Origin: Chitinophagaceae bacterium
GTDB lineage: Bacteria > Bacteroidota > Bacteroidia > Chitinophagales > Chitinophagaceae
Assembly: GCA_023957155.1 (NCBI GenBank)
Contig: JAMLHK010000007.1
Location: 62,001-126,000 of the forward strand
Length of the DNA: 64,000 nucleotides
Reading direction: 5' to 3'
Shown here: positions 7,325-33,642 of the stretch, piece after piece
Layout: every line of letters starts with the position of its first letter
Position numbering within the stretch: position 1 is the first letter of the stretch
Translations under genes and position numbers: made by a program
The notes under the pieces: model-generated
What the model was told of the DNA's origin: nothing
Seen by the model: only the letters and a program-made list of their open reading frames with translations
Database searches by the model: none

Positions 7325-7331
7325 TCTAAAA

Positions 7332-7339: not shown

Positions 7340-7480
7340 GCATATTTTTCTGCTTTCGTCCTGACGGGATCTTCACAGCGAGGCAACAGTGTAAAGAGTG
7401 AGACCCCGACAATTATTAAATTATTCTACTCCAGCGTCTCATGGCTGCTCCACAATAACCTTAAATGAAGACCACGGTGT

Positions 7481-7638
7481 GACGCCTCGGTTTCTCGGTA
7501 GACGCCTCGATCCCTCGGCGTGACGAACGGAAGGATGCGGATTGGGCTTCATTGCCATTGCCGGGCTTTGGTACCCTGAGGGGGCATTCCATTCCCCCGC
7601 CCATCGCTACACCACCGCTGGTCATGCCGAAGCATTGA
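7481..7638. repeat. REP-like intergenic repeat, copy 1
   Basis: A 158-bp GC-rich element repeated in the same orientation at 8077-8234, about 85-90% identical by eye. It starts with two imperfect tandem units of GACGCCTCGATCCCTCGG type. It holds an identical core (GGATGCGGATTGGGCTTC and GGGCTTTGGTACCCTGAGG) and a small hairpin in which a G-run and a C-run flank CATTCCATT. It ends in TCATGCCGAAGCATTGA. Such 'GTCATGCCGAnnnnAnnCGAGG' intergenic repeats are common in Bacteroidota genomes. This copy ends 18 bp past the stop codon of the GIY-YIG gene. Confidence 0.85.
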
Positions 7639-7656
7639 TGCATCCGCCTACCTTTA

Positions 7657-8004: not shown

Positions 8005-8076
8005 AATGATTAAGCGGTTAGCGCTATGAAGATAGTGATTATTTGCTCAATGTCAACTTTTCATGCGGGAGGAATA

Positions 8077-8234
8077 GACACCTCGGTTCCCCGGTGTGAC
8101 GCCTCGATTCCTCGGCGTGACGAGCAGGAGGATGCGGATTGGGCTTCACTGCCATTTCCGGGCTTTGGTACCCTGAGGGGCATTCCATTCCCCTGCCCAT
8201 TACAGCACTACCGTTAGTCATGCCGAAGCATTGA
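8077..8234. repeat. REP-like intergenic repeat, copy 2
   Basis: The second 158-bp copy of the element at 7481-7638, in direct orientation, upstream of the GIY-YIG gene. The differences from copy 1 are scattered substitutions plus single-base indels, and similarity stops sharply at both ends (GACACCTCGG at the left, GCCGAAGCATTGA at the right). No target-site duplication was recognised outside the copies. Confidence 0.85.
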
Positions 8235-8287
8235 GGAGCTATTCAAATTCAAGCGCGGAGGGCTTAAGTTCACGGCTATGGTGGCGA

Positions 8288-8308
8288 CCTGCCTACCGGT
8301 CAGGCAGG
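8288..8308. repeat. Short palindromic hairpin (CCTGCCT/AGGCAGG)
   Basis: A perfect 7-bp inverted repeat around the loop ACCGGTC, in the 140-bp spacer between repeat copy 2 and the end of valS. It resembles the paired hairpins at 13115-13172, so it is probably one of a dispersed palindromic family. It has no T-run and does not look like an intrinsic terminator. Confidence 0.6.
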
Positions 8309-8374
8309 CACCCACCGGTAGAACCAATTCAATAGTTATACATAGTGATTTTAATAACCAGGGCAACGATACTT

Positions 8375-11056
8375 TTATCTCAACTGTGTCAGACTCTCTT
8401 CTATCGCCCGGATTTTAGCAGCTGCATCAGCCATTTTTTTTCTTTCCAGTTCCACTACTTCGGGCTTTGCATTTTGAACAAAGCGTTCATTACCTAACTT
8501 TTTTGATATAGAAGCAAGAAAACCTTTTTGATAAGCAAGGTCTTTCTCTAACTGCTCCTTCTGTGCGCTATGGTCAGCAGCAGGAAGCGTAGAATGAACA
8601 TAAAACTTATCTTTCCCTACTACCAGGCTGAGTCCTGCTTTTTCTACCGTATCTGCGATATGAACAGATGACGCATTCACCTGTCTGAGGAGGATAGCGC
8701 GTATAGATTCGTATTTCTCTATATCGGAAGTTTCAATATCGAGCGTTATCTCCTCTTTCATTTTAATTCCGTTCTTAACACGGGTATCACGTATGGCACT
8801 AATAGATTGCTTGAGCAGCTCTCCTTCACCCAGCTTTGCATTATTTACAACACCAACAGCCGGAAACTGCTTAACGCACAGATCTTCCTTTCTATCCTTT
8901 AGCAAATGGTATATCTCTTCTGTAATAAAAGGCATATACGGATGTAATAATTGCAGCAGTTCTGTAAAATAAGCTACTGTTTTATTATATACGCCGGCTG
9001 ATATAGATTCATCAAAGCCCGGCTTTACCCATTCCAGGTACCAACTGCAGAAGTCGTCCCAAATTAAAGAATAGATGGTCTTCAATGCCTCGCTCAGTCT
9101 AAATTCCCTGAACAATTTTTCTACCCCGGCTTTTACTTCATTCAGCCGGCTCTCAAACCATTGTGTAGCAAAGTGATCCTCATCAGGCAGGGTACCATCC
9201 ACCCGCAGCTTCCATATACGTACCAGCTTCAGTGCATTCCACAATTTGTTATTAAAGAATTTCCCCTGCTCTAAAGAAGCATTGTCAAACAGCAGGTCAT
9301 TCCCGGCAGGAGAAGATATCATAATCCCGAAACGAACCGCATCTGCACCGTAATCATCAATAAGCTTCAGCAGATCGGGCGAATTGCCCAGCTGTTTGCT
9401 CATCTTACGTCCCTGCTTATCACGCACCATGCCGGTAAAATAAACGTCTTTAAAGGGAACCGCTTTACCGGTTGCTTTTTCCTTATTATACTCCAGCCCT
9501 GCCATGATCATCCGGGCAACCCAGAAAAATATAATATCCTGCCCGGTTACCAGCACGGAGGTTGGATAATAATATTGAATATCCTTATTCCCCGGATCAG
9601 AAATACCCTTAAACACTTCCATAGGCCATAGCCAGGAGGAGAACCAGGTATCCAGCACATCTTCATCCTGTGTCAGCATATCATCAGCATCCACCTGCAC
9701 ACCCAACCGGTCAGCATATAATTTTTTCGCCGCTTCTTTATTCTCTGCAACAACAACATTACCTTTTTCATCATACCAGGCAGGTATTTGCTGCCCCCAC
9801 CACAACTGGCGGCTGATACACCAGTCTTTCACATTCTCGAGCCAATATTTATAAGTAGCGAGGAACTTATCTCCGGGATGAATATGGATATCTCCATCCA
9901 GCACCGCTTTTAAAGCCGGCTCGGCCAGCTCTTTCATTTTTAAAAACCACTGCGTGGAAATACGTGGCTCCACTACAACGCCGGTGCGTTGGCTATAGCC
10001 CAGCCGGGTATCGTATTCCTCTTCCCTGACCAGGTATCCCTCCGCTGCCAAGCGGGCAATAATTTTTTTCCGGGCGGCAAAGCGATCTTCTCCTATATAT
10101 ATCCGGGCGGCTTCGCTTAAAGTACCGTCTGCATTCAGCGTATCCACTACTTCCAACTGGTGTTTCAACCCCAGGTTATAATCGTTGATATCATGAGCCG
10201 GTGTAACTTTCAATGCACCGGTACCAAATGCAGGATCAACGTATTCATCAAAGATGACGGGTATGCTACGATTAATAAGCGGAACAACCGCTCTTGCATT
10301 TCTTAAATGGGCATACCGTTCATCGTTCGGATTAACGCAAACCGCTGTATCGCCCATGATGGTCTCCGGGCGCTGCGTGGCAATAACAATTCCTTTTTCC
10401 CCGGTCAGCGGATGGCTGATCTCATTTCCCTTTTCATCAGTGATCGCATAGCGGATATAATACAGTTTTCCTCTCAGATCCCTGTACTCCACTTCTTCAT
10501 CGCTCAACGCCGTCTTTGCCGCCGGGTCCCAGTTGATCATCCTGGCTCCGCGATATATCAGCCCTTTACCGTATAAATCCACAAACACTTTCATCACGGC
10601 TTTGTAGTAGCTATCATCCATCGTAAAGGTTACCCTGTCCCAGTCTACACTGCATCCCAATTTTTCTATCTGGCTATAGATAATACCACCATACTTTTCC
10701 TTCCATTCATAGGCATACTTTAAAAAACCGGCCCTGCTCAGGCTATTTTTATCAATGCCTCTCTCTTTCAGCATATTCACCACTTTTGCTTCCGTAGCAA
10801 TAGAAGCATGGTCACTTCCGGGCACCCAACAGGCATTAAAGCCGCTCATGCGGGCTTTTCGTACTAAAATATCCTGCACGGTTTCATTAAGGGTATGTCC
10901 CATGTGTAAAACCCCGGTAACATTGGGAGGGGGAATGACTACCGTAAAAGGCTGCCGGCTATCCGGCACGCTCTTATAATATTTTTTTTCTTTCCAGTGC
11001 CTGGTCCATTTTTCCTCAACGGCAGCAGGTTCATAATTTTTACTGAGATCTTCCAT
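8375..11056 (-). CDS. valS: Valine--tRNA ligase
   Basis: An 893-residue class I aminoacyl-tRNA synthetase that charges tRNA-Val and edits mischarged threonine. The HIGH motif is seen in PPPNVTGVLHMGHTLN and the KMSKS motif in DKQGRKMSKQLGNSPD. The CP1 editing domain sits between them, the tungsten-like WWGQQIPAW segment precedes the catalytic KMSKS loop, and the C-terminal 70 residues form the tRNA-binding coiled coil. I place the start at 11056 (MEDLSKNYEP), because the 21 in-frame codons upstream give a non-homologous, Phe/Arg-rich extension; a -7 element overlaps that extension. The gene is complete and transcribed alone. The call is very secure. Confidence 0.97.
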   Translation of the reverse strand: MEDLSKNYEPAAVEEKWTRHWKEKKYYKSVPDSRQPFTVVIPPPNVTGVLHMGHTLNETVQDILVRKARMSGFNACWVPGSDHASIATEAKVVNMLKERGIDKNSLSRAGFLKYAYEWKEKYGGIIYSQIEKLGCSVDWDRVTFTMDDSYYKAVMKVFVDLYGKGLIYRGARMINWDPAAKTALSDEEVEYRDLRGKLYYIRYAITDEKGNEISHPLTGEKGIVIATQRPETIMGDTAVCVNPNDERYAHLRNARAVVPLINRSIPVIFDEYVDPAFGTGALKVTPAHDINDYNLGLKHQLEVVDTLNADGTLSEAARIYIGEDRFAARKKIIARLAAEGYLVREEEYDTRLGYSQRTGVVVEPRISTQWFLKMKELAEPALKAVLDGDIHIHPGDKFLATYKYWLENVKDWCISRQLWWGQQIPAWYDEKGNVVVAENKEAAKKLYADRLGVQVDADDMLTQDEDVLDTWFSSWLWPMEVFKGISDPGNKDIQYYYPTSVLVTGQDIIFFWVARMIMAGLEYNKEKATGKAVPFKDVYFTGMVRDKQGRKMSKQLGNSPDLLKLIDDYGADAVRFGIMISSPAGNDLLFDNASLEQGKFFNNKLWNALKLVRIWKLRVDGTLPDEDHFATQWFESRLNEVKAGVEKLFREFRLSEALKTIYSLIWDDFCSWYLEWVKPGFDESISAGVYNKTVAYFTELLQLLHPYMPFITEEIYHLLKDRKEDLCVKQFPAVGVVNNAKLGEGELLKQSISAIRDTRVKNGIKMKEEITLDIETSDIEKYESIRAILLRQVNASSVHIADTVEKAGLSLVVGKDKFYVHSTLPAADHSAQKEQLEKDLAYQKGFLASISKKLGNERFVQNAKPEVVELERKKMADAAAKIRAIEESLTQLR

Positions 11057-17774: not shown

Positions 17775-19889
17775 TTATTTAGTCACTTTTGATTCGTGTT
17801 CTTCCACCATCCTGTCAAAAGCCCCGGCAACGGAAGCATCCAGCTTTGCCTTCTGTATCCACTCATCCGTGCCATAAACCCCTGCTTTAGAATAATCAAA
17901 GACCCTGAACTGTATTTTATTGATGATCTTTTTATTCCTGAACCTGAAATCAAAATTTTTCACATCGGCAAAGCCGGGATCTGCAATAAGAGAATGACGA
18001 TCTTTACCCTCCTGCTGCCATACGGAAAAGTTCTTTTTACCAAAGAGGATATTACGGTCCCGGGTATCCCAATAACAATTATAATCCGAATAGATATCCA
18101 TATCCGCCCAATTGCTGCTCAGCAATGTCCCTTTGTTATAATATACGATGTTGTTTGTAAAAGAAAAGGACCGGTGCGCTTCCACCCGCGTACCTTGTAA
18201 CTGCGACTTAATGCTATTGGCAAAAATATTATTACGGATAATATTTTCTTTACCATAATGCTGATGAAAGCCGGCACTTTTACAGTTGTATACCAGGTTA
18301 TTTTCCATAACGATCCCTTCGGAACCCTCATCGGTATATAAGCCCCAGCCTCCGTAGTCGAGCGAATACACATGATGAATAAGATTATTACTCACCGTTG
18401 TTCCCTGTGAAGCACCTAATGTATATACGCCCCCCATATCACTTAATACGCCCCATCCCAGGTGATGAATATGATTATACTCTACCCGGTTGCGTTTGGA
18501 AGGACTATGCGTATATCCCCATACCCAGCCGACAGAAACACCGGAATACCGGAAATCGGCTATCTCATTATGCAGCAACTCGTTATCCCTCCCATTAAAG
18601 ATAATCATACCCACTGCACAGGGAAAGACATGCCCCCCGGACCGGGCAATATTATTGATCACTTTTATATGGTGCGTAACTTCTTCCGGGTTGTCACGTA
18701 AAGTGGTTTCCCCGATCTTAATAGCGCCGGCACCCAGATCATGTAAATAACAATGCTCAACCAGCCCGTTGTTGCAGGCGCGTCTAAACCATATTCCACT
18801 GCCCCCGGTACCGGAAACTTCACAATTCACAAACGATACGTTACCGGCAAAATCCAGCTCTATAGCTGCAGCAATAGGGGCAGCTGCCTGCATAGGCTCC
18901 ACTCCTCCCGGGGGCATACGATAACCCGCTATCCGGAATGCTATATTTTCAAATTGAATATTCCTTATGCTTTCTCCTGTCCGTTCATTACCTGTCAGGG
19001 TTATAAACTTATCCAATACGGGCGCCATAGCCGTGGTATGCTCTATGGTTTCTCCCGGCCGGGGATAATAAAATAAAGTACCCGAACGATCTAAAAACCA
19101 TTCGCCCGGGGCATCCAAAGCAGATCGTATATTTTCTATTGTAAACAGGGAATTCGTTCTTATCGGGTTCCAGGATGCCATGCCCTGACCGGCGATATAT
19201 ACAGAGGTGTCCTCATCGTTATATAATTGAATATGCTTTTTAGTATTATCCCAGTGATGATAAAAAGTAACGACCGCATCCTTTTTTTCTTCTTCAGATA
19301 AGCCCTTCAGCCATTGGGCGGCTTCAACAGGTATTTTAATTTGTTGCGTTGCCAGATCAGCTATTGCTCCCTGGCCCGCAACCAGAACGGTTTCTTTAAC
19401 CGATACCGGCGAGTAGAACCCCTTATTGGGTGATTGTGCCCGGGGTACCCGGTTGCCATTAATATATAATTGCTCAAAATGCCAGCCATACCGCCTTACT
19501 TCAGGAACATCGGCCTTCCATAAATGATCTGACACCCGCTCAAATTTACCCAGGTAAAAACCACCATAAAAGACAGCTCCTTCCTCCCCTTTAAATACCA
19601 GTGGCACTGCTTCCGTACCACTATCTTCTACAGACAGGGTTAACGTTTCAGGCATCAGGTATTCGCCCTTACGTATAATGACCTGTAGTGGTTGTTGAGC
19701 AATAAGACCTTGTTTTCTTAATAACCTGATGCGGTCTCTGGCTGCGGTCAGCGTTGCTAACGGCTGGTCTTCCGTTCCGGGATTATTATCATTTCCACGG
19801 GGTGACAAATAAATATTTTGGGCAGTAACATCAGCAAATAACAGAGAGGCGAATACTAAAAGAAAAATGAACCTGATATTTTGTTTCAT
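17775..19889 (-). CDS. Secreted right-handed beta-helix glycosidase, GH141-like
   Basis: A 704-residue protein with a signal peptide (to about residue 23, VTAQ). The start of the mature domain, IYLSPRGNDNNPGTEDQPLA, then TAARDRIR, is the classic opening of Bacteroidota parallel beta-helix polysaccharide enzymes. Helix coils follow (VEHCYLHDLGAGAIKIGETT, NRVEYNHIHHLGWGVLSDMG, VMENNLVYNCKSAGFHQHYG). The order and length resemble GH141, a family with alpha-L-fucosidase and xylanase members, but I cannot separate this from other beta-helix families by eye. It is the first gene of the four-gene operon, 108 bp ahead of the DUF1080 gene. It is not adjacent to the GH29 fucosidase operon, so a shared substrate is only a possibility. 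Confidence 0.75.
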   Translation of the reverse strand: MKQNIRFIFLLVFASLLFADVTAQNIYLSPRGNDNNPGTEDQPLATLTAARDRIRLLRKQGLIAQQPLQVIIRKGEYLMPETLTLSVEDSGTEAVPLVFKGEEGAVFYGGFYLGKFERVSDHLWKADVPEVRRYGWHFEQLYINGNRVPRAQSPNKGFYSPVSVKETVLVAGQGAIADLATQQIKIPVEAAQWLKGLSEEEKKDAVVTFYHHWDNTKKHIQLYNDEDTSVYIAGQGMASWNPIRTNSLFTIENIRSALDAPGEWFLDRSGTLFYYPRPGETIEHTTAMAPVLDKFITLTGNERTGESIRNIQFENIAFRIAGYRMPPGGVEPMQAAAPIAAAIELDFAGNVSFVNCEVSGTGGSGIWFRRACNNGLVEHCYLHDLGAGAIKIGETTLRDNPEEVTHHIKVINNIARSGGHVFPCAVGMIIFNGRDNELLHNEIADFRYSGVSVGWVWGYTHSPSKRNRVEYNHIHHLGWGVLSDMGGVYTLGASQGTTVSNNLIHHVYSLDYGGWGLYTDEGSEGIVMENNLVYNCKSAGFHQHYGKENIIRNNIFANSIKSQLQGTRVEAHRSFSFTNNIVYYNKGTLLSSNWADMDIYSDYNCYWDTRDRNILFGKKNFSVWQQEGKDRHSLIADPGFADVKNFDFRFRNKKIINKIQFRVFDYSKAGVYGTDEWIQKAKLDASVAGAFDRMVEEHESKVTK

Positions 19890-22538: not shown

Positions 22539-23414
22539 ATGAAGCCTGAACTTATTGTAGACGCACCTATTTTAGGACAGAAAAAAATATGGGTAAAAAA
22601 AATTAATAAACCCCACTTCGATCATCCATTTCATTTTCATAGACTTTCCGAACTTACCTGGATCAGGGAAGGCCACGGAAAATTGATTGTTGGCGACTAT
22701 GTGGGAAATTTTTCCGAAGGCGAGGTCATTCTTGCCAGCCCCGAACTACCTCACTTATGGAGATGTGATCCCGCTTATTATAAAAACAATAAAAATCTCT
22801 TTACCAGATCAATAGGACTATACTTCCCCCTCGAATTGGTCAACATGCTATCAGACGACATTCCCAGCACACACCGATACAATGAACTGATGCAAAGAGC
22901 AGAGAGAGGACTACGATTTTATGGTAAGACCCGACTGTCCGTTAACGACAAAATGAAAGAGCTGGTCAATGCCAACGGCTTAATGCAACTTGGCCTTTTT
23001 TTACAGGTGATAGATTACCTTTCAAGATCAAAAGAATATGAATTCCTGTCCAGCGTGGGATACAAACGATCTTCCAATATCAACGATATTGAAAGATTTA
23101 ACGAGGTATACCAATTCCTGTTAAAAAATTTTCATAGAGACATTATGCTTGAAGAAGTAGCCCGCATCTGCAATATGACACCCGGTTCATTCTGCAGGTT
23201 TTTCAAACAAAAAACCCAGAAAACGTTCACATTTTTTCTGAATGAGCTGAGAATTGGTCATGCAAAAAAATTATTGCAAAACGAAAACTATCCGATCAAA
23301 GACATTTGTTATGAATGCGGCTATAACAACCCGGTTAATTTTTTCAACACTTTTAAAAAAATGGCAAAGCAAACTCCAAAGTCATTCAGGGAAAGTTTAA
23401 TAAAAATGAAATGA
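22539..23414 (+). CDS. AraC-family transcriptional regulator with N-terminal cupin
   Basis: A 291-residue regulator. The first 130 residues form a sugar-sensing cupin (HFDHPFHFHRLSELTWI, then EGEVILASPELPHLW), and the last 100 carry the two helix-turn-helix units of the AraC family (VARICNMTPGSFCRFFKQ, then IKDICYECGYNNPVNFFNTF, with PKSFRESL near the end). It converges on the nine-gene fucosidase operon, whose last gene ends 35 bp past its stop. By position it is the likely pathway regulator, with a deoxyhexose or derivative as probable effector. The shared box at 22378-22400 and 31966-31988 is a candidate binding site. Confidence 0.93.
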   Translation: MKPELIVDAPILGQKKIWVKKINKPHFDHPFHFHRLSELTWIREGHGKLIVGDYVGNFSEGEVILASPELPHLWRCDPAYYKNNKNLFTRSIGLYFPLELVNMLSDDIPSTHRYNELMQRAERGLRFYGKTRLSVNDKMKELVNANGLMQLGLFLQVIDYLSRSKEYEFLSSVGYKRSSNINDIERFNEVYQFLLKNFHRDIMLEEVARICNMTPGSFCRFFKQKTQKTFTFFLNELRIGHAKKLLQNENYPIKDICYECGYNNPVNFFNTFKKMAKQTPKSFRESLIKMK

Positions 23415-23448: not shown

Positions 23449-24504
23449 CTATGCTTTTGACGCTTTGTAAGCTTTTTCCACCAGCCGCATCGTATTCACA
23501 CAATCCTCCACGGAATTATCCGGACATGAAATAATACCCTGGCGGGCTTTTATGAGCTCGTGCATGGAACCGATAAAAGCATGTGGGAACCAGGAACCAT
23601 TTAGAGGCAACGTTTTCCATTCAGACGGATGTTCATCAGCTAAAATATATTCAAAGCTGTCTTCAACACCGTCAGGATAGTTCATTAACACCCCAAGCGT
23701 TGTTTTGATAACCCCTTTTGTTCCTTCTATTTTAATAAAGGCATCCTGGTTATGCAGCCCGAAATCATGTGTATGATTGGTGGAAATATTCACCCTCACC
23801 AAATCGCCATAATCCATAATGATATTTGACTTCACATCTCGTAATTGTTGCATTTTAGGATGTCGCGTTGTTTTGGCAAAAATACCTGCAGGCTCACCCA
23901 GCATATTCCTCACCAGATCAATATAATGGATGCTATGATACAATATTTCCACTCTGGGAGCTCCATACAAAAAACGCCAAAGATGCCACGGTGTATAAAC
24001 GTTCACATATATTTCAAGATCACAGATATCGCCCAGCAGCCCTTCGGCTATCATCTGCTTTGCCATCAGTACGTACGGCGCATACCTCAACTGGAAATTT
24101 ACACCGGCTGTTATATGCTTTTGCCTGCACAACTGCAATATCTGTTCAGCCTGCTGCTCGTTCTCTCCCATCGGCTTCTGCATCAGCACAAAGCTATGAT
24201 CAGGAAGCTGCCGGATCACTTCAGGAATCGCCCTGCCCGGTACGGCTATGTCGTAAATGCAGCTGCAGCCATTTTCCGTAGCCATTTGCCGGATACTATC
24301 ATACACAAAGGGAATAGCAAACGCGGCTGCCAGATTACGGGCTTTGGACATGTCTATATCAAAGATCCCCGCAACGGGTATGCCTGCCAGCCTGTAAGCC
24401 GGCAAATGCGCTCCTTCCACAATTCCGCCCGCGCCAATAATCGCTACCGGGCAGGTTTTCCCGATCACCGGTATCTCAAAACGAATATGTTCCAAACGGT
24501 TCAT
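23449..24504 (-). CDS. Gfo/Idh/MocA-family oxidoreductase
   Basis: A 351-residue NAD(P)-dependent oxidoreductase. The Rossmann motif is VAIIGAGGIVEGAHL, the domain-linking motif VLMQKPMGENEQQA corresponds to the family's EKP segment, and the C-terminal alpha/beta domain includes NFQLRYAPYVLMAK and the catalytic-region His in YHSIHYIDLVRN. There is no signal peptide, so the enzyme is cytoplasmic. It is the ninth and last gene of the fucosidase operon, 6 bp after the symporter gene. By context it probably oxidises the imported deoxysugar or a downstream intermediate; the substrate is not deducible. Confidence 0.9.
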   Translation of the reverse strand: MNRLEHIRFEIPVIGKTCPVAIIGAGGIVEGAHLPAYRLAGIPVAGIFDIDMSKARNLAAAFAIPFVYDSIRQMATENGCSCIYDIAVPGRAIPEVIRQLPDHSFVLMQKPMGENEQQAEQILQLCRQKHITAGVNFQLRYAPYVLMAKQMIAEGLLGDICDLEIYVNVYTPWHLWRFLYGAPRVEILYHSIHYIDLVRNMLGEPAGIFAKTTRHPKMQQLRDVKSNIIMDYGDLVRVNISTNHTHDFGLHNQDAFIKIEGTKGVIKTTLGVLMNYPDGVEDSFEYILADEHPSEWKTLPLNGSWFPHAFIGSMHELIKARQGIISCPDNSVEDCVNTMRLVEKAYKASKA

Positions 24505-24510
24505 AATACA

Positions 24511-25563
24511 TTAACTTCCTCCCAGGTAATTTCCGTAAGTAATGATCAGTACAGCTGCTACCAATACGATCAATGCCAGCGTCAATACCCTGGTAGTGTA
24601 TTTTCTTACCCCTGCCCACTCTTTCATTACAATCCCTATAACAGCGCTGATCAGCACCAGCATGATCATATGGATGGCCCAGCTTGTAAATTTATACATT
24701 CCCATGCGGTTATGCCCCAGCCCGTAAAAGAAAAACTGGGTATACCACAATACCCCTGTCAGCACAGCTAATCCATAATTCAGCCATATCCGCCGGTTGC
24801 TACCGGTATTTTCACCTACGGGAGCTTTATACTCCAGCCATGTTTTATGCTTATAATGAAGGTAAATACAATACAAAGCAGTACTAACAAAAGCTCCGGT
24901 ATTGGAGAAGATATAGATCACATTTCCCTGGAAGTTACCGGCGCCATATTTTGCCGCTACATCTGCAATGGGTTGCCCGCGGAAAAGGGAAAAGCCATAC
25001 AGGGCAGACAGCACCCCGGCGAGGATACAAAGCGTGATGCCTACGGAAAACGAATAATGCTCTTTTTCCCCGCGCCGGCTTTCATAATCTTTCTCTTTTA
25101 ACCTGCCGGCAAGCCCACACAAAGCAATACCTGCCGCTCCTGCAACAATTCCCGTTATGATCGTACTGCCACCATCGCCATTCAGCACCGATGCAATCTT
25201 TCCTTCGTACAACGGAGGCAGCAACGTACCGAGCACACAGGGGATACCCACCGATATGGCATAGGTAAGCGAAAAGCCGACATAGCGTATGGCAACGCCA
25301 AAAGCCGTGCCTCCGATACCATATAATATTCCCAGCAAAAAAGAGCTTCTCATGGCAGACGAGGGTGCTTCCGCCAGCACCTGCCGCAGGTGCGGAATGG
25401 TTAAAAAAGCTACTCCTACCGGCAGCAATACCCAGCAAACCAGGGCCTGCATCAACCAGTAAGTTTGCCACGACCAGCCTTTTGTTTTTTTCTGCGGCGT
25501 ATAACACACCGATGCCGCAAACGCACCGGTAAAATGTAAAAGGATTCCTGCTATAAGATTCAT
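24511..25563 (-). CDS. RhaT-like deoxysugar/proton symporter
   Basis: A 350-residue inner-membrane transporter with about ten hydrophobic helices and the typical RhaT opening (GILLHFTGAFAASVCYTPQK, WSWQTYWLMQ). RhaT imports L-rhamnose with H+; Bacteroidota relatives sit in loci for L-rhamnose, L-fucose and other sugars. The motifs GILYGIGGTAFGVAIRYVGF and SWAIHMIMLVLISAVIG are further family landmarks. It is 10 bp after the amidohydrolase gene and 6 bp ahead of the oxidoreductase gene. With a periplasmic alpha-L-fucosidase in the operon, L-fucose is the most likely cargo, though rhamnose cannot be excluded. Confidence 0.9.
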   Translation of the reverse strand: MNLIAGILLHFTGAFAASVCYTPQKKTKGWSWQTYWLMQALVCWVLLPVGVAFLTIPHLRQVLAEAPSSAMRSSFLLGILYGIGGTAFGVAIRYVGFSLTYAISVGIPCVLGTLLPPLYEGKIASVLNGDGGSTIITGIVAGAAGIALCGLAGRLKEKDYESRRGEKEHYSFSVGITLCILAGVLSALYGFSLFRGQPIADVAAKYGAGNFQGNVIYIFSNTGAFVSTALYCIYLHYKHKTWLEYKAPVGENTGSNRRIWLNYGLAVLTGVLWYTQFFFYGLGHNRMGMYKFTSWAIHMIMLVLISAVIGIVMKEWAGVRKYTTRVLTLALIVLVAAVLIITYGNYLGGS

Positions 25564-25573
25564 AATAATTGTT

Positions 25574-26440
25574 CTAAAGGCTTATCAGATTATAGAAACG
25601 GGCAGCATTGGTGTGATACACTTTTTCCGCATCTTCATTATTCAACAACGTATCTATGATCCCGGTATATCTTTCCCAGTGCATAGCGTAGCTGCCGGCA
25701 AGCGTAGACACCGGCCAGTCTCCGCCCAAAAAGCAACGGTCTGTACCAAATACCTCCAACGCGTAACTGATATAAGGAGAGATATCATCCGCCGTCCATG
25801 CAACAGGATCTCCGGAAGCTGTTCCCAATCCTGATATTTTAGCATATACGTTCCCGTTAGCCACTATCTCTTTTATCAACTCTCCCCATTTTCCAAAGCG
25901 GTGGCCCGCTTTTATGGGAGGCTGATTCAAATGATCCAGCACCATCCGCAGCGAAGGTATTTTTTCAGAAACCCTGATAGCGGTGCCGAGATGATCGTTA
26001 TTAATACCCACTATGTCGTAAGGGATATGATAGGATGCCAGTATTTCCAGGCTATCAAGTACATTTTCCTGCAGCAGCCACCCGGGATCGGGCTCGTTGT
26101 GTATCAGGTGCCTGACACCTTTAAAATAAGGTTCTTTCAGAAATCTTTCCTCCAGCAGCCGCTGCGTTTTCCCGGGATCAGTCAACGGCAGCCAGCCTAC
26201 TACTCCCGCAATTTCATGATTGTTGCGTGCCGCCTCAAGCATCAGCTCCGTATCCTCCGGGTTATTGGCAGCCTGCACCAGTACTCCCGAAGCAACCGGG
26301 GTAGCAGCCATTTGGGGCAGCAGCTCATCCGGCAGGTAAGTACGATTTAAAATGCTGGTATCTCCATCCAGCCATTCGTATCTTACCTTTTCAAGATCCC
26401 AGATATGGATGTGGGTATCAATAATATTGTTTTTCACCAT
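25574..26440 (-). CDS. Amidohydrolase, L-fuconolactonase-like
   Basis: A 288-residue TIM-barrel hydrolase of the amidohydrolase_2 group, which includes L-fucono-1,5-lactonase and L-rhamnono-gamma-lactonase. The metal-binding start IIDTHIHIWDLEKVRYEWL, the conserved GWLPLTDP, FKGVRHLIHNEPDPGWLL, MVLDHLNQPP and FLGGDWPVSTLAGSY are all present. I start at 26440 (MVKNNIIDTHIHIW) instead of the ATG at 26464, which would overlap the upstream gene by 8 bp. Opening a sugar lactone fits oxidation by the Gfo/Idh enzyme in the same operon. The substrate is inferred from the fucosidase. Confidence 0.88.
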   Translation of the reverse strand: MVKNNIIDTHIHIWDLEKVRYEWLDGDTSILNRTYLPDELLPQMAATPVASGVLVQAANNPEDTELMLEAARNNHEIAGVVGWLPLTDPGKTQRLLEERFLKEPYFKGVRHLIHNEPDPGWLLQENVLDSLEILASYHIPYDIVGINNDHLGTAIRVSEKIPSLRMVLDHLNQPPIKAGHRFGKWGELIKEIVANGNVYAKISGLGTASGDPVAWTADDISPYISYALEVFGTDRCFLGGDWPVSTLAGSYAMHWERYTGIIDTLLNNEDAEKVYHTNAARFYNLISL

Positions 26441-26456
26441 CGTTATTTTAAAAATA

Positions 26457-27614
26457 TTATACAAGCACCTGCTTTAATGACCCCCTATACAGCAGGTTGA
26501 TCTCGTCAAGTACGGATTGAGCGTTGCCGCCGTATTGCAGGTATTGCTGAAGCGGCAGCCCTGCCCTGTCCTGGAAACGCAGGTACCCGTTATAACGGGG
26601 ACGCACATACGCCCTGTCCAGGGCAGGCAATGTATTGATAAAGTACCCGGCAGTATAACGGTTCACATGTTCATCTTCCCAGGCAAGCCTGTGTCCTGGT
26701 TGTCCGCCCGTTTCTGTATATAGTGTCGCCTGTATTCCGGGAGATACTATCCACTCCACGAATTGCACGGCTTCTGCAGGATGGGAGGAAGCGGCGGATA
26801 CGGCGATACCCGTGCCACCCAGCGTGCTGCAGAGTTTATGTTCTCCTATGCTTACCAGATCTGTATAGTGCAGCAGGTGCAACGCATATCCTTTCCTGGA
26901 ATAATTAGAGTACCCGTATGCAAACGGACAATACCAGTAATCGTTTGTACCACTCATCATTTCCGCCACTGCAATAGGGTTGCGGGTAAACATCTTTTTA
27001 TCCACCCTGCTCCATAATTCACTCATCCGCTGTAAAGCCAGCCTGCCGGTATTGCTGTCTATTACTTCTTCCCGGCTGGCAAAAGGTGTTTTACCTGCTG
27101 CTATACAGAACATATAAAAATTCATCAGCAGGTCTATAGGAATACCCGGTACGGCTATTTTTCCTTTTTCCGCCAGTGCGATCACTTCATCCCAGCCTGC
27201 GGGCAAACCTGTATTATTTTTTTCCAGCAGGTCTTTTCTATAGCTGGCAACGGGGGTGGCGGCATCAATCGCTAAAGCCCACTGGTGCCCATCGTACTGA
27301 TAGCTTTGGTGCGAAAAGCCGACCGTATGCCTCAATTGATCCTCCAGGTAGGCTGCGGAAACATGCTGATCCAGCGGCAGCACACATTTTGCAGCGGCAG
27401 CACAACCCACCCAGGGATGATCAATGATCAGCAGGTCATAGTCGTGCACCAGTTGCTCTATGGGAAAATCCGCAAACTCCTGGAGGGTTCTTTTCGTCCA
27501 GGTGATATTGATCTGCGGGTGCAGCTCAGCGTAACGTTGGGCGCAGGCAACCAATGGCGTATAACCGCGGCTGTGACCCCAGGTAATACCTTTCAGCTCA
27601 ATCTTCTCCGACAT
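26457..27614 (-). CDS. Solute-binding-protein-like (SBP type 1) protein lacking a signal peptide
   Basis: A 385-residue protein with the fold of ABC-transporter sugar-binding proteins: WGHSRGYTPLVACAQRYAEL, the hinge segment GLPAGWDEVIALAEKGK, SGTNDYWYCPFAYGYSNYS and SSHPAEAVQFVEWIVSP. Unusually, it has no signal peptide or lipobox: the protein begins MSEKIELKGITWGH and the first 60 residues have no hydrophobic stretch. No permease or ATPase genes of an ABC importer are near. The start at 27614 leaves 1 bp to the MaoC stop; the in-frame extension to 27653 lies inside maoC. It may be a cytoplasmic ligand-binding or sensing protein of the pathway. Confidence 0.82.
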   Translation of the reverse strand: MSEKIELKGITWGHSRGYTPLVACAQRYAELHPQINITWTKRTLQEFADFPIEQLVHDYDLLIIDHPWVGCAAAAKCVLPLDQHVSAAYLEDQLRHTVGFSHQSYQYDGHQWALAIDAATPVASYRKDLLEKNNTGLPAGWDEVIALAEKGKIAVPGIPIDLLMNFYMFCIAAGKTPFASREEVIDSNTGRLALQRMSELWSRVDKKMFTRNPIAVAEMMSGTNDYWYCPFAYGYSNYSRKGYALHLLHYTDLVSIGEHKLCSTLGGTGIAVSAASSHPAEAVQFVEWIVSPGIQATLYTETGGQPGHRLAWEDEHVNRYTAGYFINTLPALDRAYVRPRYNGYLRFQDRAGLPLQQYLQYGGNAQSVLDEINLLYRGSLKQVLV

Positions 27615-27615
27615 C

Positions 27616-28059
27616 TTACGCGTTTTTAAGTTGTGCCAGCAAAATATGTTCACAAACCATTACACATTCCTGCTTTTGATTGAATACTTCCACCAGCTCG
27701 GTAACCAGGCCCATGCCCGGTTTTTTATATGACTTTTTTTCTTTTATGGTAATTTTTACGTTTATGGTATCTCCTATAAAAACAGGTTTTATAAATCGCA
27801 GGCGGTCGTATCCATAGCTGAAAGCCACTTCGTTGATCAGGGAAGCCGTCATGCCAACCGCCACGCTGAAGATGAGCGTACCGTGAGCTATACGTTCCTT
27901 AAAGGGCTGCGTTTTGCACCACTCCGCATCCATATGATGCGGGAAAAAGTCGCCGGTTTGGCCGGCATGCATAACAATATCCGTTTCGGTTATGGTACGA
28001 CCGATCGTTTCACGGGTGTTGCCCTCAGTATAATCTTCAAAATATATTTTGGTAAACAT
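27616..28059 (-). CDS. MaoC-family dehydratase/hydratase
   Basis: A 147-residue hot-dog-fold protein of the MaoC/R-specific enoyl-CoA hydratase family. The active-site segment is [14 protein letters not shown], with the catalytic Asp and His kept but the usual Asn position occupied by Phe. The start resembles YFEDYTEGN and the [14 protein letters not shown] segment is also conserved. Such enzymes hydrate or dehydrate CoA- or ACP-bound acyl groups. It lies 24 bp after one CaiB/BaiF gene and 1 bp before the solute-binding-like gene, so it very probably acts on a CoA ester made by those transferases. Confidence 0.9.
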
Positions 28060-28083
28060 AGGAATTTGAAATTTGAGATATGA

Positions 28084-29229
28084 CTATAATCCAAACTCTT
28101 TTGCAATTTTTTCATTGTGCTCTCCCAGCAAAGGAGCTCCTCTTTGAGAGGTGAGCATATTTCCATCCACTCTTACCGGGCAGCGTGTGGTTTTTATTTT
28201 TACCTTGTCCGACACTACCCATTGCTCCATCTCCAGGAGCTTGTATCCCTCGCTGGCCAGCAGATCATCGTAGTCATATACATCGGCACACCATATATCC
28301 GCGGGCTCCAGCACAGACAGCCAGACAGCGGTTGCTTTTTGCATAAAAACTCCCTGCAAAACGCCTTTGATCTTATCTCTTTTCGCAAACCAGTCTTCAG
28401 ATTTTGTGTACCCGCTTAAGGCATCCGTACCCATCAGCTCTCCCAGCTTCGCAACAGGCGCCATGGCTATAGCAATGTAGCCGTCTGCCGTTTTATATAT
28501 TCCATAAGGCGCGGCTATATAAGCATGTGCGCCGTTAACTGCGCTTCGCAACGGCATATCATTACCATCATTGAAAAAACAGGTAAGTACTTCAAACTGA
28601 AAATCCAGGAGGCTTTCCAGCATGCTCACCTGTATCAATGCTCCTTCGCCGGTATGTAACAGCTGTAATAAAGCTGCCAATATGCCCTGTGATAAATGTG
28701 TTCCGGCAATAATATCAGCTACAGCCACGCCCATAGGTACAGGCGGATGACCGGCATTCCCGGTAAGGTATGTAATGCCCGATACAGACTGAAGCAACAG
28801 ATCCTGCCCCGGGAGGTGTTTCCATTCTCCCTCCTGCCCATACCCGCTGATCTCCCCGTAAACAATGGAAGGGTTGATCTCTTTTACCCGCTCATAATCC
28901 AACCCGATGCGCTCCATTACACCCGGGCGAAAATTATGTAGCATAACGTCTGCTTTTGCTATCAGTTTTTTAACCGACCTTAGCGATACTTCATCTTTTA
29001 TATCTGCCGCAAAGCTTTCTTTATTGCGGTTGATCGCGTGGAATATGGTTGACTCACCTCCCGGAAGCTTTACATCCGACACATACAGCATACGGCAGAT
29101 ATCCCCTGTGCCCGGACGTTCAATTTTAATAACCCGGGCGCCCATATCGGCCATCCGCAGACCCGCGCTTGGCCCGGAAAGGAACTGGCTGAAATCCAAA
29201 ACCAAAATATCTTCCAAAAGCGTATTCAT
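28084..29229 (-). CDS. CaiB/BaiF-family CoA-transferase, copy B
   Basis: A 381-residue family III CoA-transferase (formyl-CoA/succinyl-CoA:carboxylate type), which moves CoA from an acyl donor to a carboxylate acceptor through an aspartyl intermediate. Landmarks are VLDFSQFLSGPSAGLRMADM, GARVIKIERPGTGD, LHNFRPGVMERIGLDY, YGEISGYGQEGEW and the catalytic-Asp region GVAVADIIAG. It is a clear paralogue of the next gene upstream, 3 bp away, and both match the family length. The two may form a heteromer or act on successive substrates. Substrate unknown. Confidence 0.93.
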   Translation of the reverse strand: MNTLLEDILVLDFSQFLSGPSAGLRMADMGARVIKIERPGTGDICRMLYVSDVKLPGGESTIFHAINRNKESFAADIKDEVSLRSVKKLIAKADVMLHNFRPGVMERIGLDYERVKEINPSIVYGEISGYGQEGEWKHLPGQDLLLQSVSGITYLTGNAGHPPVPMGVAVADIIAGTHLSQGILAALLQLLHTGEGALIQVSMLESLLDFQFEVLTCFFNDGNDMPLRSAVNGAHAYIAAPYGIYKTADGYIAIAMAPVAKLGELMGTDALSGYTKSEDWFAKRDKIKGVLQGVFMQKATAVWLSVLEPADIWCADVYDYDDLLASEGYKLLEMEQWVVSDKVKIKTTRCPVRVDGNMLTSQRGAPLLGEHNEKIAKEFGL

Positions 29230-29232
29230 ATA

Positions 29233-30369
29233 TCAGGCTAATGAAGCTTTAATGTTTGCATTGTTTTCTCCTATGGAGGGAGCAGGTTTATTCGACTTCA
29301 GCAATTGTTTGTTGATACGAACCGGACAGCGGGTAGTTACAAAACTTTGATCCTTAGCCAGCATGATCTCCTGTTCCATTTCAAGTATTTTATATCCTTC
29401 AGCAGCCCTCATTTCTTTCCAGCTTAATACGGGCATTATCCACAAGTCCAGTGCTTCCGCTTTTTGCAGCCAGTACTGATTGGTGCCTGTTAAAAGATGC
29501 CTGGCAATGATCTCTTTAATTTCATCCCTTTTTGAAAAGCTATCTTCTTCGCTATACACACGCAATGCTTCACATTGTAATGCTTTATTAAGCTCGTTCA
29601 AAGGCATCATGGCTATCGCTATATAGCCATCGGCTGTCCCGTAAATGCCATAAGGAGCACTCAACAGCGAATTGGCATTATTGAATCGTGCCCGCTGAGG
29701 AACTTTCTTACTTTGGAAATAAGTGGTAAAGAACTCAAACTGGAAATCAATAAGCGATTCCATAAGGCTTAACTGAAGCAACGTGCCATGGCCTGTTTTC
29801 TTTGCTTTTATTAAAGCAGCAATTATGAATTGCACTGCCTGGTTGCCGCACAAATAATCTCCGATCGACAATCCGCATGGCATCGGGGCGTCGTCATAGC
29901 TGCCTGTAGTATAGGCCAGCCCCGAAAGCGATTGTACCAGCAGGTCCTGTCCCGGCTTATTTTTCCAGGGGCCTTTTTCACCGTATCCGGAAATCTGCGT
30001 ATAAACAATGGAAGCATTCATTTGCTTAACATCTTCGTAACCCAACCCTTTTCTTTCCATCACGCCCGGTCTGAAGTTATGTGTTATGACGTGAGCCCTT
30101 GCAACCAGCTTCCTTAGCCACTGCATATCCCCTTCGTTATTCAGATCAACCGCAAAGCTTTCCTTATTCCGGTTAATGGTATGAAACAGTAAAGAGCTCT
30201 CATCCACCCACAGGTTTTTAATGACCAGTCTCCTGCCTGCTTCCCCTTTTTCGGGATGTTCAATTTTAATCACGCGGGCGCCCAGATCGGCTAACCGTAA
30301 ACCTGCGCAAGGACCTGACAGGTACTGGCTGAACTCCAGAGCAACAATGCCTTTTAATGGTAACTGCAT
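29233..30369 (-). CDS. CaiB/BaiF-family CoA-transferase, copy A
   Basis: A 378-residue family III CoA-transferase, the first of two tandem copies. It has the same landmarks: VALEFSQYLSGPCAGLRLAD, GARVIKIEHPEKGEAGRR, THNFRPGVMERKGLGY, YTQISGYGEKGPW and the Asp-bearing GLSIGDYLCG. The two copies share most motif positions but differ around the active-site segment (IGDYLCG here, VADIIAG in copy B), so they have probably diverged in substrate. It follows the mutarotase gene by 34 bp. Pairing such enzymes with a deoxyhexose operon is unusual. Confidence 0.93.
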   Translation of the reverse strand: MQLPLKGIVALEFSQYLSGPCAGLRLADLGARVIKIEHPEKGEAGRRLVIKNLWVDESSLLFHTINRNKESFAVDLNNEGDMQWLRKLVARAHVITHNFRPGVMERKGLGYEDVKQMNASIVYTQISGYGEKGPWKNKPGQDLLVQSLSGLAYTTGSYDDAPMPCGLSIGDYLCGNQAVQFIIAALIKAKKTGHGTLLQLSLMESLIDFQFEFFTTYFQSKKVPQRARFNNANSLLSAPYGIYGTADGYIAIAMMPLNELNKALQCEALRVYSEEDSFSKRDEIKEIIARHLLTGTNQYWLQKAEALDLWIMPVLSWKEMRAAEGYKILEMEQEIMLAKDQSFVTTRCPVRINKQLLKSNKPAPSIGENNANIKASLA

Positions 30370-30403
30370 ACCTTAAGTCATTTAAAAATGCGGGATTAAT
30401 AGA

Positions 30404-30733
30404 TCAATCGTGGTGGAAGATCTCCTCCATATCTGCCCACCATTCGTCTTCCCTTCTTGATAGCAAGGGTTTCATACAGGGTTTGCATACCGCCCACCAT
30501 CGAAGCGTGGATGGGTCTGCCGCCATCTTCCTCATATCCGCTTCATAATCATTTCCGGTATACTCAAAATAGCTGAACAGCAAATGATCTTTCAGGTAAA
30601 TGGAATAATTACGGATGTTGCAATCACTTATAGTCTTCAATACCTCCGGCCAAGCCTCAGCATGAAGTCTTTTGTATTCTTCCATTCTCCCAGGCATCAG
30701 CTCTATTACCGCTCCATATCTTTTTTTCTGCAT
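30404..30733 (-). CDS. L-rhamnose/L-fucose mutarotase-type protein (RhaM family)
   Basis: A 109-residue ferredoxin-like protein of the RhaM family, which interconverts the anomers of L-rhamnose; relatives work on other 6-deoxyhexoses. The catalytic His and preceding region are in EYKRLHAEAWPEV, and the double Trp and basic segment are in STLRWWAVCKPCMKP. The C-terminal WWADMEEIFHHD is also typical. The gene follows the fucosidase gene by 58 bp. A mutarotase here supports intracellular sugar as the substrate of the following enzymes. Whether it prefers fucose or rhamnose cannot be told from sequence. Confidence 0.92.
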   Translation of the reverse strand: MQKKRYGAVIELMPGRMEEYKRLHAEAWPEVLKTISDCNIRNYSIYLKDHLLFSYFEYTGNDYEADMRKMAADPSTLRWWAVCKPCMKPLLSRREDEWWADMEEIFHHD

Positions 30734-30791
30734 CGGGCTGCATTTTTAGTTAGATAATCAAAATTCGCACGATTTAATACGATCCATAACA

Positions 30792-31880
30792 TCATTGAAT
30801 ACCCGCGTTTTTTTTAAGGGCAAGCAATGCCTTTACATGCATCTCAGGTATCACTCCTCTTTTATCGGGAGGTACATTCAGGAGAAGGTTGGCTCCTCTC
30901 TGTGTTACGGAAAGATACTGGTTCAGCAGGGCCTCCTCAGAACGCGGGGTATCTCCATCCACGTAAAACCATTCTTTCCCTATCGGGTCGCAAACTTCCC
31001 CGGGCATGTAGTAGGTCTCTCCTTCTATTTCCCTCCATTTGTTATGTCCTCCATCCTTCGGCAAATTCCTTTCAATGGCAATAATATCAGAAGGCCAGGC
31101 ATAAGGTACATTGTAATTTTCACCACTGCTTATACCGCTGTTCATCATGATCACACAATGGGGTTGCAGCTTTGCAATATACTGGTATAAATACGTGCGG
31201 TATCCGCGGCCTAATACCCCCGGGATATCTATCCACATTTCCGCTATATCTCCATACTGTGTCAGCAGCTCCGTTACCTGAGCGGTCTGAAAAGTCTGGT
31301 ACATAGAGGAAGTAAAAGGAGCTGTTTCACCGGGTTTCCCGGGAAAGCTGTTCATCACCGGATTCCATTTTACATCGGTGGGTGTTTGACTTCCGAACCT
31401 GTGATGATTGTCCCATGAACAATAATAGAACCCCGGTTTAATACCATATTTACGGCAGGCTTTTACAAAGGCGTCTACCACATCTGTTGTATTGCCACTA
31501 TTGGCCACCGTATAGTCTGTGTGTTTGCTGGGCCACAGGCAATGCCCCGCTACATGCTTGGTGGTGAGCACCGCATATTTCATACCAGCCTCTTTTGCTA
31601 CCGATATCCATTGGTCTACATCCAGCTTATCCGGCGAGTATACAGCAGCAGCATCCATGCCACCGGGCAACTCCTTTCCTACAAAGGTGCTCATGCCAAA
31701 ATGAATGAACATCCCGTACCGCATTGCCTCCCACTCCTTCAACCTCTTAAGGCTTAGTCGCTGGGCGCCCTTGCTTTTGCTCACGGCAGCCGTAGCGGTT
31801 GTAAAGCTCCCCGCAATGGCAGCACTTCCTGCAGTCATTGCCATTCCGGTAATAAAGCTTCGTCTTGATCTGTTTGTCAT
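30792..31880 (-). CDS. GH29 alpha-L-fucosidase, exported
   Basis: A 362-residue glycoside hydrolase family 29 enzyme, which releases L-fucose from glycans. It has a Tat-like leader (RSRRSFITG, then a hydrophobic stretch to about residue 32), so it acts in the periplasm. Family landmarks are EWEAMRYGMFIHFGMSTFVG, KYAVLTTKHVAGHCLWPSKH, GFYYCSWDNHH and EMWIDIPG, where Asp218 is the expected nucleophile. A C-terminal jelly roll is absent, so only the catalytic barrel is present. This is the first gene of the nine-gene operon and, together with RhaT and the mutarotase, points to L-fucose as its substrate sugar. Confidence 0.93.
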   Translation of the reverse strand: MTNRSRRSFITGMAMTAGSAAIAGSFTTATAAVSKSKGAQRLSLKRLKEWEAMRYGMFIHFGMSTFVGKELPGGMDAAAVYSPDKLDVDQWISVAKEAGMKYAVLTTKHVAGHCLWPSKHTDYTVANSGNTTDVVDAFVKACRKYGIKPGFYYCSWDNHHRFGSQTPTDVKWNPVMNSFPGKPGETAPFTSSMYQTFQTAQVTELLTQYGDIAEMWIDIPGVLGRGYRTYLYQYIAKLQPHCVIMMNSGISSGENYNVPYAWPSDIIAIERNLPKDGGHNKWREIEGETYYMPGEVCDPIGKEWFYVDGDTPRSEEALLNQYLSVTQRGANLLLNVPPDKRGVIPEMHVKALLALKKNAGIQ

Positions 31881-32775: not shown

Positions 32776-33642
32776 ATGTCTGCCGCATCCACCACCGTAA
32801 AAATAGTTGAATGCCCGCGCGATGCCATGCAGGGTTGGAGCCATTTTATCCCGACAAAACAAAAAATTGAGTATATCAATGTCTTGCTGAAAGTTGGATT
32901 TGATACCCTTGATTTCGGCAGTTTTGTTTCGCCGAAGGCGATTCCCCAAATGGCTGATACCCATGAGGTGATCAAACAATTGGATACTTCCGGAACCAGC
33001 ACCAAACTGTTAGCTATTGTTGTTAATGAGCGGGGAGCAAAAGAAGCCCTGCAATACGATACCATCAACTGCCTCGGCTTCCCTTTTTCTGTTTCCGAGA
33101 CTTTTCAGTTGCGGAATGCCAACAGCACAATAAAGGAATCGTTATACCGGGTTGAAGCCATACAGGCACTTTGTGCTGTGCATCAAAAGCAGCTGGTCAT
33201 TTACCTCTCCATGGGATTTGGTAATCCTTACGGAGATCCGTATAGTGAAGAAACGGTTTACCACTGGACAAACATCATGCAGCAGGCAGGCATCACCGTT
33301 ATATCTTTATCCGATACGGTAGGTCTGGCCACTCCGGAACAGGTAAACCGCATTACCGCACATCTGGTCAACAGCTTTCCCGGCATGGAGATCGGTGTTC
33401 ACCTGCATTCTGCTCCGGCTCAACAAATACCCAAGATTGATGCAGCATTCAACGCCGGTTGTCGCCGGTTTGACGGTGCTTTACTGGGTATCGGTGGCTG
33501 CCCTATGGCTGACGATGAACTGACAGGCAATATAGATACGGAACAACTGATTGCCTATTTTTCGAAATCAGGGTACTGCACCCAGATCAATACCGAAGCG
33601 CTGCAGCAAAGCATAGGGATAGCCAAAACTATATTTATATAA
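32776..33642 (+). CDS. Hydroxymethylglutaryl-CoA lyase
   Basis: A 288-residue TIM-barrel lyase of the HMGL-like group, which cleaves HMG-CoA to acetyl-CoA and acetoacetate in leucine breakdown. The start VKIVECPRDAMQGW corresponds to the usual EVGPRDGLQ metal and substrate site, then come LDFGSFVSPKAIPQMADTHE, SLSDTVGLATPEQV, the metal-binding HLH in IGVHLHSAP and the catalytic-Cys loop GIGGCPMADDELTGN. All essential landmarks are present. It is divergent from the tRNA and not in the fucosidase operon. GSCFA follows 1 bp after its stop. The exact acyl-CoA substrate may differ. Confidence 0.9.
   Translation: MSAASTTVKIVECPRDAMQGWSHFIPTKQKIEYINVLLKVGFDTLDFGSFVSPKAIPQMADTHEVIKQLDTSGTSTKLLAIVVNERGAKEALQYDTINCLGFPFSVSETFQLRNANSTIKESLYRVEAIQALCAVHQKQLVIYLSMGFGNPYGDPYSEETVYHWTNIMQQAGITVISLSDTVGLATPEQVNRITAHLVNSFPGMEIGVHLHSAPAQQIPKIDAAFNAGCRRFDGALLGIGGCPMADDELTGNIDTEQLIAYFSKSGYCTQINTEALQQSIGIAKTIFI

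Follow-up and report, generated by a model that had tools for sequence, protein, structure and literature searches.

The window analysed here, a 64,000-nucleotide stretch of Chitinophagaceae DNA (contig JAMLHK010000007.1), contains a compact minus-strand operon, at positions 23449–31880, in which genes for an α-L-fucosidase family protein and for sugar uptake and oxidation stand together with two class III CoA-transferase genes and a MaoC-type hydratase gene. We propose, with a probability of about 0.4, that this operon, as a self-contained module, takes up and oxidises an L-6-deoxyhexose other than plain L-fucose and plain L-rhamnose. This third sugar would most likely be an O-substituted L-fucose, led into the fucose route by a CoA-dependent elimination. 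The sequence data show the gene families, the conservation of catalytic residues and of the gene set, the association with the fucose route and the parallel sets of transporters and oxidation enzymes.

The original prediction, made from the letters of the window, described nine tightly spaced minus-strand genes, and the open reading frames and Pfam matches agree with every family it named. The intergenic gaps are 58, 34, 3, 24, 1, 16, 10, and 6 nt, 5′ to 3′ along the operon, as measured with re-picked starts for the sugar-binding-protein (SBP) homologue (ATG at 27614) and the lactonase (ATG at 26440), whose longer listed reading frames begin with GTG and TTG inside the preceding gene. The genes and a likely regulator are as follows.

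30792–31880, minus strand: GH29 α-L-fucosidase family protein, operon gene 1 (Pfam Alpha_L_fucos, 149.5 bits, cutoff 25.2)
30404–30733, minus strand: RhaM-type mutarotase (Pfam rhaM, 112.2 bits)
29233–30369, minus strand: CaiB/BaiF (class III) CoA-transferase a (CoA_transf_3, 289.9 bits, cutoff 23.3)
28084–29229, minus strand: CaiB/BaiF (class III) CoA-transferase b (CoA_transf_3, 317.8 bits, cutoff 23.3)
27616–28059, minus strand: MaoC-type hydratase/dehydratase, "MaoC2" (MaoC_dehydratas, 88.7 bits)
26457–27614, minus strand: MalE-fold SBP homologue, probably cytoplasmic (SBP_bac_8, 52.9 bits; SBP_bac_1 also matched)
25574–26440, minus strand: COG3618-type amidohydrolase, probably a sugar lactonase (Amidohydro_2, 143.8 bits)
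24511–25563, minus strand: RhaT-type sugar/proton symporter (Pfam RhaT, 178.5 bits, cutoff 27)
23449–24504, minus strand: Gfo/Idh/MocA dehydrogenase, probably an aldose 1-dehydrogenase (GFO_IDH_MocA, 45.7 bits)
22539–23414, plus strand: AraC-family regulator, likely the regulator of the operon (open reading frame, convergent with the operon's 3′ end)

Within the operon, none of the enolase, UxaA and IlvD dehydratase families has a Pfam match. The oxidative L-fucose route uses a dehydrogenase, a lactonase, a fuconate dehydratase, a KDF dehydrogenase and an FAH hydrolase (the Xanthomonas type); a UxaA/aldolase version is that of Campylobacter. This known route appears, by sequence comparison, to be present in the window's genome but outside the window. 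Contig C21 (locus L104) encodes FucP (TIGR00885, 333 bits, cutoff 280) and an L-fucose dehydrogenase (NF052481, 407 bits, cutoff 300). Two further proteins encoded there stay below their cutoffs: another lactonase (256 bits against 400) and a hydrolase of the FAH family (384 bits against 500). On contig C20 (L125), a UxaA-type dehydratase gene is followed by an SDR gene, and the pair resembles genes in the fucose operons of relatives. Of 28 fucose loci examined in relatives, 7 (L118, L119, L121, L122, L123, L133, and L138) have UxaA and FAH within one stretch of 18–20 kb, and 23 have relatives of the C20 SDR at 58–71% identity. The C20 UxaA scores 269.6 against a galactarate dehydratase cutoff of 730.9, and inspection by eye recognised no uronate gene beside it; since UxaA identity alone cannot tell fuconate from altronate dehydratase, it is its gene neighbourhood by which it appears to be a fuconate dehydratase.

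The original statement that the known fucose routes are not encoded therefore holds for the window and fails for the genome, whose fucose-route genes lie on other contigs. A fucose pathway expressed elsewhere under the same AraC control had been named beforehand as contrary evidence; genes for such a pathway are largely there in FucP, the fucose dehydrogenase, the lactonase, FAH, UxaA and SDR, and the C20 candidate and the wide occurrence of UxaA described below speak against the expected absence of fuconate dehydratase genes. For the phosphorylating route, no L-fucose isomerase lies above cutoff in this 88% complete assembly (two PF02952 matches to FucI score 23.5 and 21.3 against 29.3), the search not having included FucK, and the sole Aldolase_II match in the genome is RhaE of the rhamnose locus. 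In that locus, on contig C12 (L109), RhaE exceeds its cutoff and a RhaI-like isomerase stays below its own; the RhaT-like protein encoded there is only 34% identical to the RhaT-type protein of the window. Mutarotase-like stretches are found in both the fucose (30% identity) and the rhamnose (35%) loci, so that one genome carries three parallel sets: rhamnose (L109), fucose (L104, including the mutarotase-like stretch) and the module of the window. An enolase-type FucD was also sought in this genome (G000) and set aside: the Roseibium FucD gave no match of at least 35% around six of the seven MR_MLE_C matches, and the FucD-like protein of L003 gave none at E 1e-60. These six enolase-type genes may nevertheless encode weaker fuconate dehydratases.

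The association between module and fucose route recurs among relatives. Among 195 genomes of the family, a close relative of the window MaoC is found in 35, FAH in 111, and UxaA in 122. FAH occurs in 33 of the 35 module genomes versus 78 of the 160 others (Fisher p = 1.4e-7), and UxaA in 34 of 35 versus 88 of 160 (p = 4.1e-7), both tests being uncorrected for kinship. The near-constant presence of UxaA argues against the module replacing fuconate dehydratase. Two genomes of the window's own genus, G171 and G257, have the fucose-route genes and no module match. In G144 (L134), a fucose operon is followed directly by the module, and the two together hold two dehydrogenases, two lactonases and two transporters; these duplicate sets speak for a second substrate entering the fucose route and against replacement of that route. 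As a side observation, a LutB-type lactate oxidation gene lies near a fucose FAH gene (L113:7558–8961), which is in keeping with the formation of lactate at the end of the fucose route; by eye, the N-termini of L117:7135–8622 and L130:10323–11705 are similar to LutB.

With MaoC as query, one scan yielded 345 relatives. The 80 loci ranked best belong to Bacteroidota, Verrucomicrobia, Paenibacillus, Ammoniphilus, Chloroflexi, Acidobacteria, and Lentisphaerales, and plasmid records add Alphaproteobacteria and one unverified record naming a betaproteobacterium. Related gene sets, which the original prediction had suggested seeking in other Bacteroidota, were thus found there and well beyond, and a combination that recurs across so many phyla is not due to chance. 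Components were counted over the 58 of the 80 loci that span 15 kb or more. Of these, 57 have CaiB (43 of them in two copies), 50 the SBP homologue, 46 Gfo/Idh, 41 RhaT, 20 a lactonase of the window's type, and 7 the mutarotase. These counts are low, as the picking of reading frames missed genes; MaoC itself was counted in 55 of the 58, although every locus was chosen by it.

Glycosidase genes accompany the module. A protein with DUF5703_N and GH95-like regions is present in 18 of 87 loci (for example, L004:5474–7702 and L083:12402–14594), and relatives of the window's GH29 protein (73% and 75% identity) lie directly before the module's mutarotase gene in L006 and L008. GH29, GH95 or DUF5703 genes occur in 24 of the 58 module loci versus 3 of 27 fucose-route loci (p = 0.006), a rough control, since the two sets differ in source and length; by similarity cluster, such genes are also found in loci of Chloroflexi (L038, L060) and Paenibacillus (L069). 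This neighbourhood suggests that the sugars are released by α-L-fucosidase-type enzymes. Homologues of the AraC regulator flank the module in L004 (77% identity, 5′ side) and L077 (56%, 3′ side).

We propose the following course. α-L-Fucosidase-family enzymes would release the O-substituted L-fucose, and RhaT would import it. The mutarotase would supply the right anomer, the Gfo/Idh enzyme would oxidise C1, and the amidohydrolase would open the lactone. The CaiB pair would then make an aldonyl-CoA thioester, from which MaoC would remove the C2 proton and the C3 leaving group by β-elimination, giving a 2-oxo-3-deoxyaldonyl-CoA. With CoA handed on to the next aldonate, the freed 2-keto-3-deoxy acid would join the ordinary L-fucose route through SDR and then FAH, to pyruvate and lactate; the SBP homologue would hold or present the acid inside the cell. 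We infer from the gene content and its distribution what the sugar is, that its acid forms a CoA ester and undergoes elimination, where the product enters the fucose route and what the SBP homologue does. A reason for CoA activation may lie in the substrate itself. Dehydratases of the enolase, UxaA and IlvD types bind their substrates through the carboxylate and a free 2-OH, the first two through a metal. As a thioester can do without a free 2-OH, fucose substituted at O-2 would be a natural substrate, and a blocked 2-OH would explain the activation.

The conserved residues are consistent with this chemistry. The two CaiB genes are the only CoA_transf_3 matches of the assembly (4.6 Mb). D171 of CaiB-a and D172 of CaiB-b, presumably the aspartate nucleophile by analogy with FRC and CaiB, are conserved in at least 95% of 117 sequences, own copies included; by family and by this presumed nucleophile, the pair are class III CoA-transferases. 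In MaoC, D37 and H42 (motif GDFFPHH) are conserved in at least 95% of 85 sequences, again with own copies included, so that, judged by sequence, the protein has the Asp-His dyad of MaoC/R-hydratases; the usual Asn of that motif is replaced by Phe. The nearest solved structure is 4ffu (197 bits) from S. meliloti, which may be the pSymB MaoC homologue itself. In the Gfo/Idh protein, K110-P111, H190, H193, and D196 are conserved in at least 95% of 52 sequences, and there is no solved-structure relative at E 1e-10.

Cassettes of CaiB and a hydratase are found in other sugar operons as well. The cassettes of Variovorax, Streptomyces, Sinorhizobium, and Shinella are read mostly from the annotation of the records, with the CaiB and crotonase of L143 confirmed by Pfam. 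In Variovorax (L143) and Streptomyces (L144), the CaiB gene overlaps that of an SBP homologue, and genes for a crotonase-family hydratase and an FAH-annotated protein follow, with an SDR and an aldose epimerase nearby. On a Sinorhizobium plasmid (L147), CaiB, SBP and crotonase are accompanied by Gfo/Idh, SDR, aldose epimerase and a sugar transporter, and a Shinella plasmid (L149) has a sugar transporter, crotonase, SDR, SMP-30 lactonase, SBP and CaiB. In Microvirga (L142), the SBP homologue stands beside two UxuA-type dehydratases. These positions, in six loci selected for inspection, suggest that CaiB plus a hydratase occupies the aldonate-dehydratase slot of other sugar operons. Since the pair recurs in differently assembled operons, the CoA chemistry is better supported than could be known from the window. 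The sequence of steps first predicted (oxidation, opening of the lactone, activation by CaiB and processing by MaoC) is still the best reading, because CaiB and a hydratase stand in that slot in four sugar operons; what has shifted is the substrate, now more likely a third, fucose-like sugar than plain L-fucose. L-Fuconate and L-rhamnonate have a 3-OH of R configuration, which suits MaoC-type R-hydratases, and the common D-aldonates are 3S, which suits crotonases. This stereochemistry would fit the split between MaoC and crotonase cassettes if the latter serve D-type sugars.

The SBP homologue is a regular companion of the pair. By its structure model (pLDDT 95.3), it has a MalE-type fold, and Foldseek matches it to binding proteins for maltose, trehalose, and sulfoquinovose (E 1e-20 to 1e-19). 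In contrast to MalE-type ABC sugar-binding proteins, whose fold it shares, it has no signal peptide visible by eye at its N-terminus, no ABC permease in the operon, and a conservation above that expected of a receptor; it is probably cytoplasmic and, by export signal and cognate permease, does not qualify as an ABC solute-binding protein. Of 69 homologues of useful length, 45 were inspected, and all but about ten of these start at, or a few residues before, the first β strand; the exceptions have longer listed starts, apparently called wrongly. Among 46 sequences from several phyla, taken from loci selected by MaoC similarity, 42 columns of about 384 are invariant, including W11, H13, R15, R41, D64, D116, R125, N236, and R337 (numbered from the residue after Met), a pattern that, at the sequence level, resembles an enzyme or a component with a fixed partner. 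Homologues are found on 145 plasmid records. The SBP gene directly adjoins a CaiB gene in at least 39 of 66 cases; that of the window instead follows MaoC. In many Bacteroidota, the CaiB pair is followed by an SBP of another family, which likewise has no apparent signal peptide outside Alphaproteobacteria. The window's genome also has a paralogue (39% identity) on contig C12 (L101), beside an enolase-type dehydratase, an SDR and a Gfo/Idh, with no CaiB. Its homology starts 38 bases after the SDR gene, which leaves no room for a signal peptide. At that locus (G000:C12:371000–388000, 4300–9352), the SBP homology starts upstream of the first ATG, GTG or TTG found by the caller of reading frames, the enolase protein is like L-rhamnonate dehydratase, and a 281 aa protein is also present.

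Several points weigh against the proposed module for an O-substituted fucose. To our knowledge, the substrate or activity of no module member is known, and the choice of an O-substituted sugar rests on exclusion and on the neighbouring glycosidases. NCBIfam cutoffs are missed by the RhaT-type protein (RhaT equivalog, best 303.7 versus 468), the mutarotase (TIGR02625, 49.5 bits, cutoff 99.6) and the lactonase (NF052480, L-fucono-1,5-lactonase, 157.8 bits versus 400, lower than the score of its C21 paralogue). Two of the 35 module genomes, G168 and G187 (83% complete), have no FAH match, and at 1e-15 no NCBIfam model matches the Variovorax and Streptomyces proteins annotated as FAH. A further MaoC (MaoC1; 30 sequences, motif LDMHPYVAD; for example, L004:7766–8275) is present in many relatives and absent from the window, where only 24 bp separate CaiB-b from MaoC. 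On a single contig, locus L023 combines Gfo/Idh, mutarotase, lactonase, CaiB, MaoC, SDR and FAH, and a search of which UxaA was not part recognised no enolase-type dehydratase in its 10.3 kb; this arrangement fits plain fuconate too. Moreover, the loci of Alphaproteobacteria contain the whole fucose route, with a single lactonase and a single mutarotase throughout, so that the module shares enzymes there and may act on fucose.

These last two observations favour a rival that we consider possible though rather unlikely, in which the module is a parallel route that dehydrates, by way of CoA, the aldonate of plain L-fucose or of another unmodified L-6-deoxyhexose such as 6-deoxy-L-talose, and is redundant with or alternative to UxaA/FucD; the filling of the dehydratase slot by CaiB and a hydratase elsewhere agrees with it. 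Yet the module genomes nearly all have a UxaA match already, the window's genome and G144 keep separate transporters, dehydrogenases and lactonases, and the congeneric G171 and G257 have fucose-route genes with no module. Outright replacement of fuconate dehydratase by CaiB and MaoC, prompted by the FAH gene with no dehydratase on C21, was dropped as the preferred explanation and ranked with the rivals because of the C20 UxaA and SDR genes, the UxaA–FAH linkage, the spread of SDR relatives in fucose loci and the UxaA of the module genomes. Somewhat less probable still is that CaiB and MaoC merely travel with sugar genes, their substrate being an acid that has nothing to do with the sugar ring, for example an acyl or carboxyl group decorating the glycan. 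Class III CoA-transferases are known from the chemistry of oxalate, carnitine, succinate and mesaconate. It is against models of this kind that the window pair scores best in NCBIfam, in every case far below cutoff, and the literature searched contained none of the aldonyl-CoA terms sought. However, the pair recurs in compact sugar-oxidation operons with a partner of sugar-binding fold, and no further acyl-CoA enzyme is among the identified families of frequent neighbours, most small clusters being unidentified; a Roseibium record does have genes for a thiolase and an AMP-binding protein, which form a cluster of their own some 4 kb from the module. The idea that the SBP homologue is itself an enzyme, for example an aldonate epimerase or lyase, whose product is acted upon by CaiB and MaoC, has the invariant columns in its favour, as well as the loci in which SBP stands beside UxuA or an enolase-type dehydratase with no CaiB; we consider it quite unlikely, as the fold is an ordinary MalE-type one and a conserved binding site alone could explain the pattern.

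The proposed module for a substituted fucose resembles known systems in part. With the oxidative L-fucose route, it has in common the dehydrogenase, lactonase and mutarotase steps and the co-occurrence with FAH, but the operon lacks fuconate dehydratase and FAH and has the CoA-transferases, MaoC and the SBP homologue. In the CaiB/CaiD carnitine system and in DddD, activation by a class III transferase precedes β-elimination from the thioester, and in the carnitine system CoA is recycled by transfer. The same order is proposed for the module; it differs in its MaoC partner (crotonase in other cassettes), its sugar-oxidation context and the SBP homologue. The pSymB locus of S. meliloti is alike in having a MaoC homologue (63% identity) beside mutarotase and Gfo/Idh, with SDR and FAH next; in contrast, an ABC transporter replaces RhaT there, and an L-fuconate dehydratase (79% identical to that of Roseibium) lies in the locus. 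We know of no sugar catabolic pathway that runs through the CoA ester of a sugar acid, and the titles and abstract openings of the literature searched describe no such route, in agreement with the original failure to match it to one. It is tempting, but distinctly speculative, to see here a general, undescribed aldonyl-CoA route for sugars, comprising oxidation, thioester formation by CaiB, and elimination at C3 by MaoC (L-sugars, 3R) or crotonase (D-type, 3S), with a cytoplasmic binding protein presenting the acid; its purpose would be to open sugars blocked by 2- or 3-O-substitution, such as O-methyl-fucose, with no need of oxygen-dependent demethylation. If the proposal for the window operon is correct, it would explain a gene set spread over several phyla, assign a role to proteins whose annotation goes no further than "CoA transferase" or "extracellular solute-binding protein", and point to a way in which deoxysugars that are methylated or blocked in some other manner might be degraded independently of oxygen.

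Other genes of the window may be mentioned. Divergent from the operon, at 32776–33642 on the plus strand, an HMG-CoA lyase-like protein is encoded (207.8 bits, cutoff 246); it was considered as a module member and rejected, having no homologue in the 87 loci. Between 43415 and 63452 lies an apparent polysaccharide-biosynthesis cluster, named by eye from N-termini only, with an aminotransferase, sugar transferases, nucleotide-sugar enzymes and a KAS III-like pair (50021–52113). About 3.5 kb past the operon, at 17775–19889 on the minus strand, there is a gene for a right-handed β-helix protein whose N-terminus looks secreted and which has a weak match to the GH141 insertion domain (34.4 bits, cutoff 27); family GH141 includes fucosidases.

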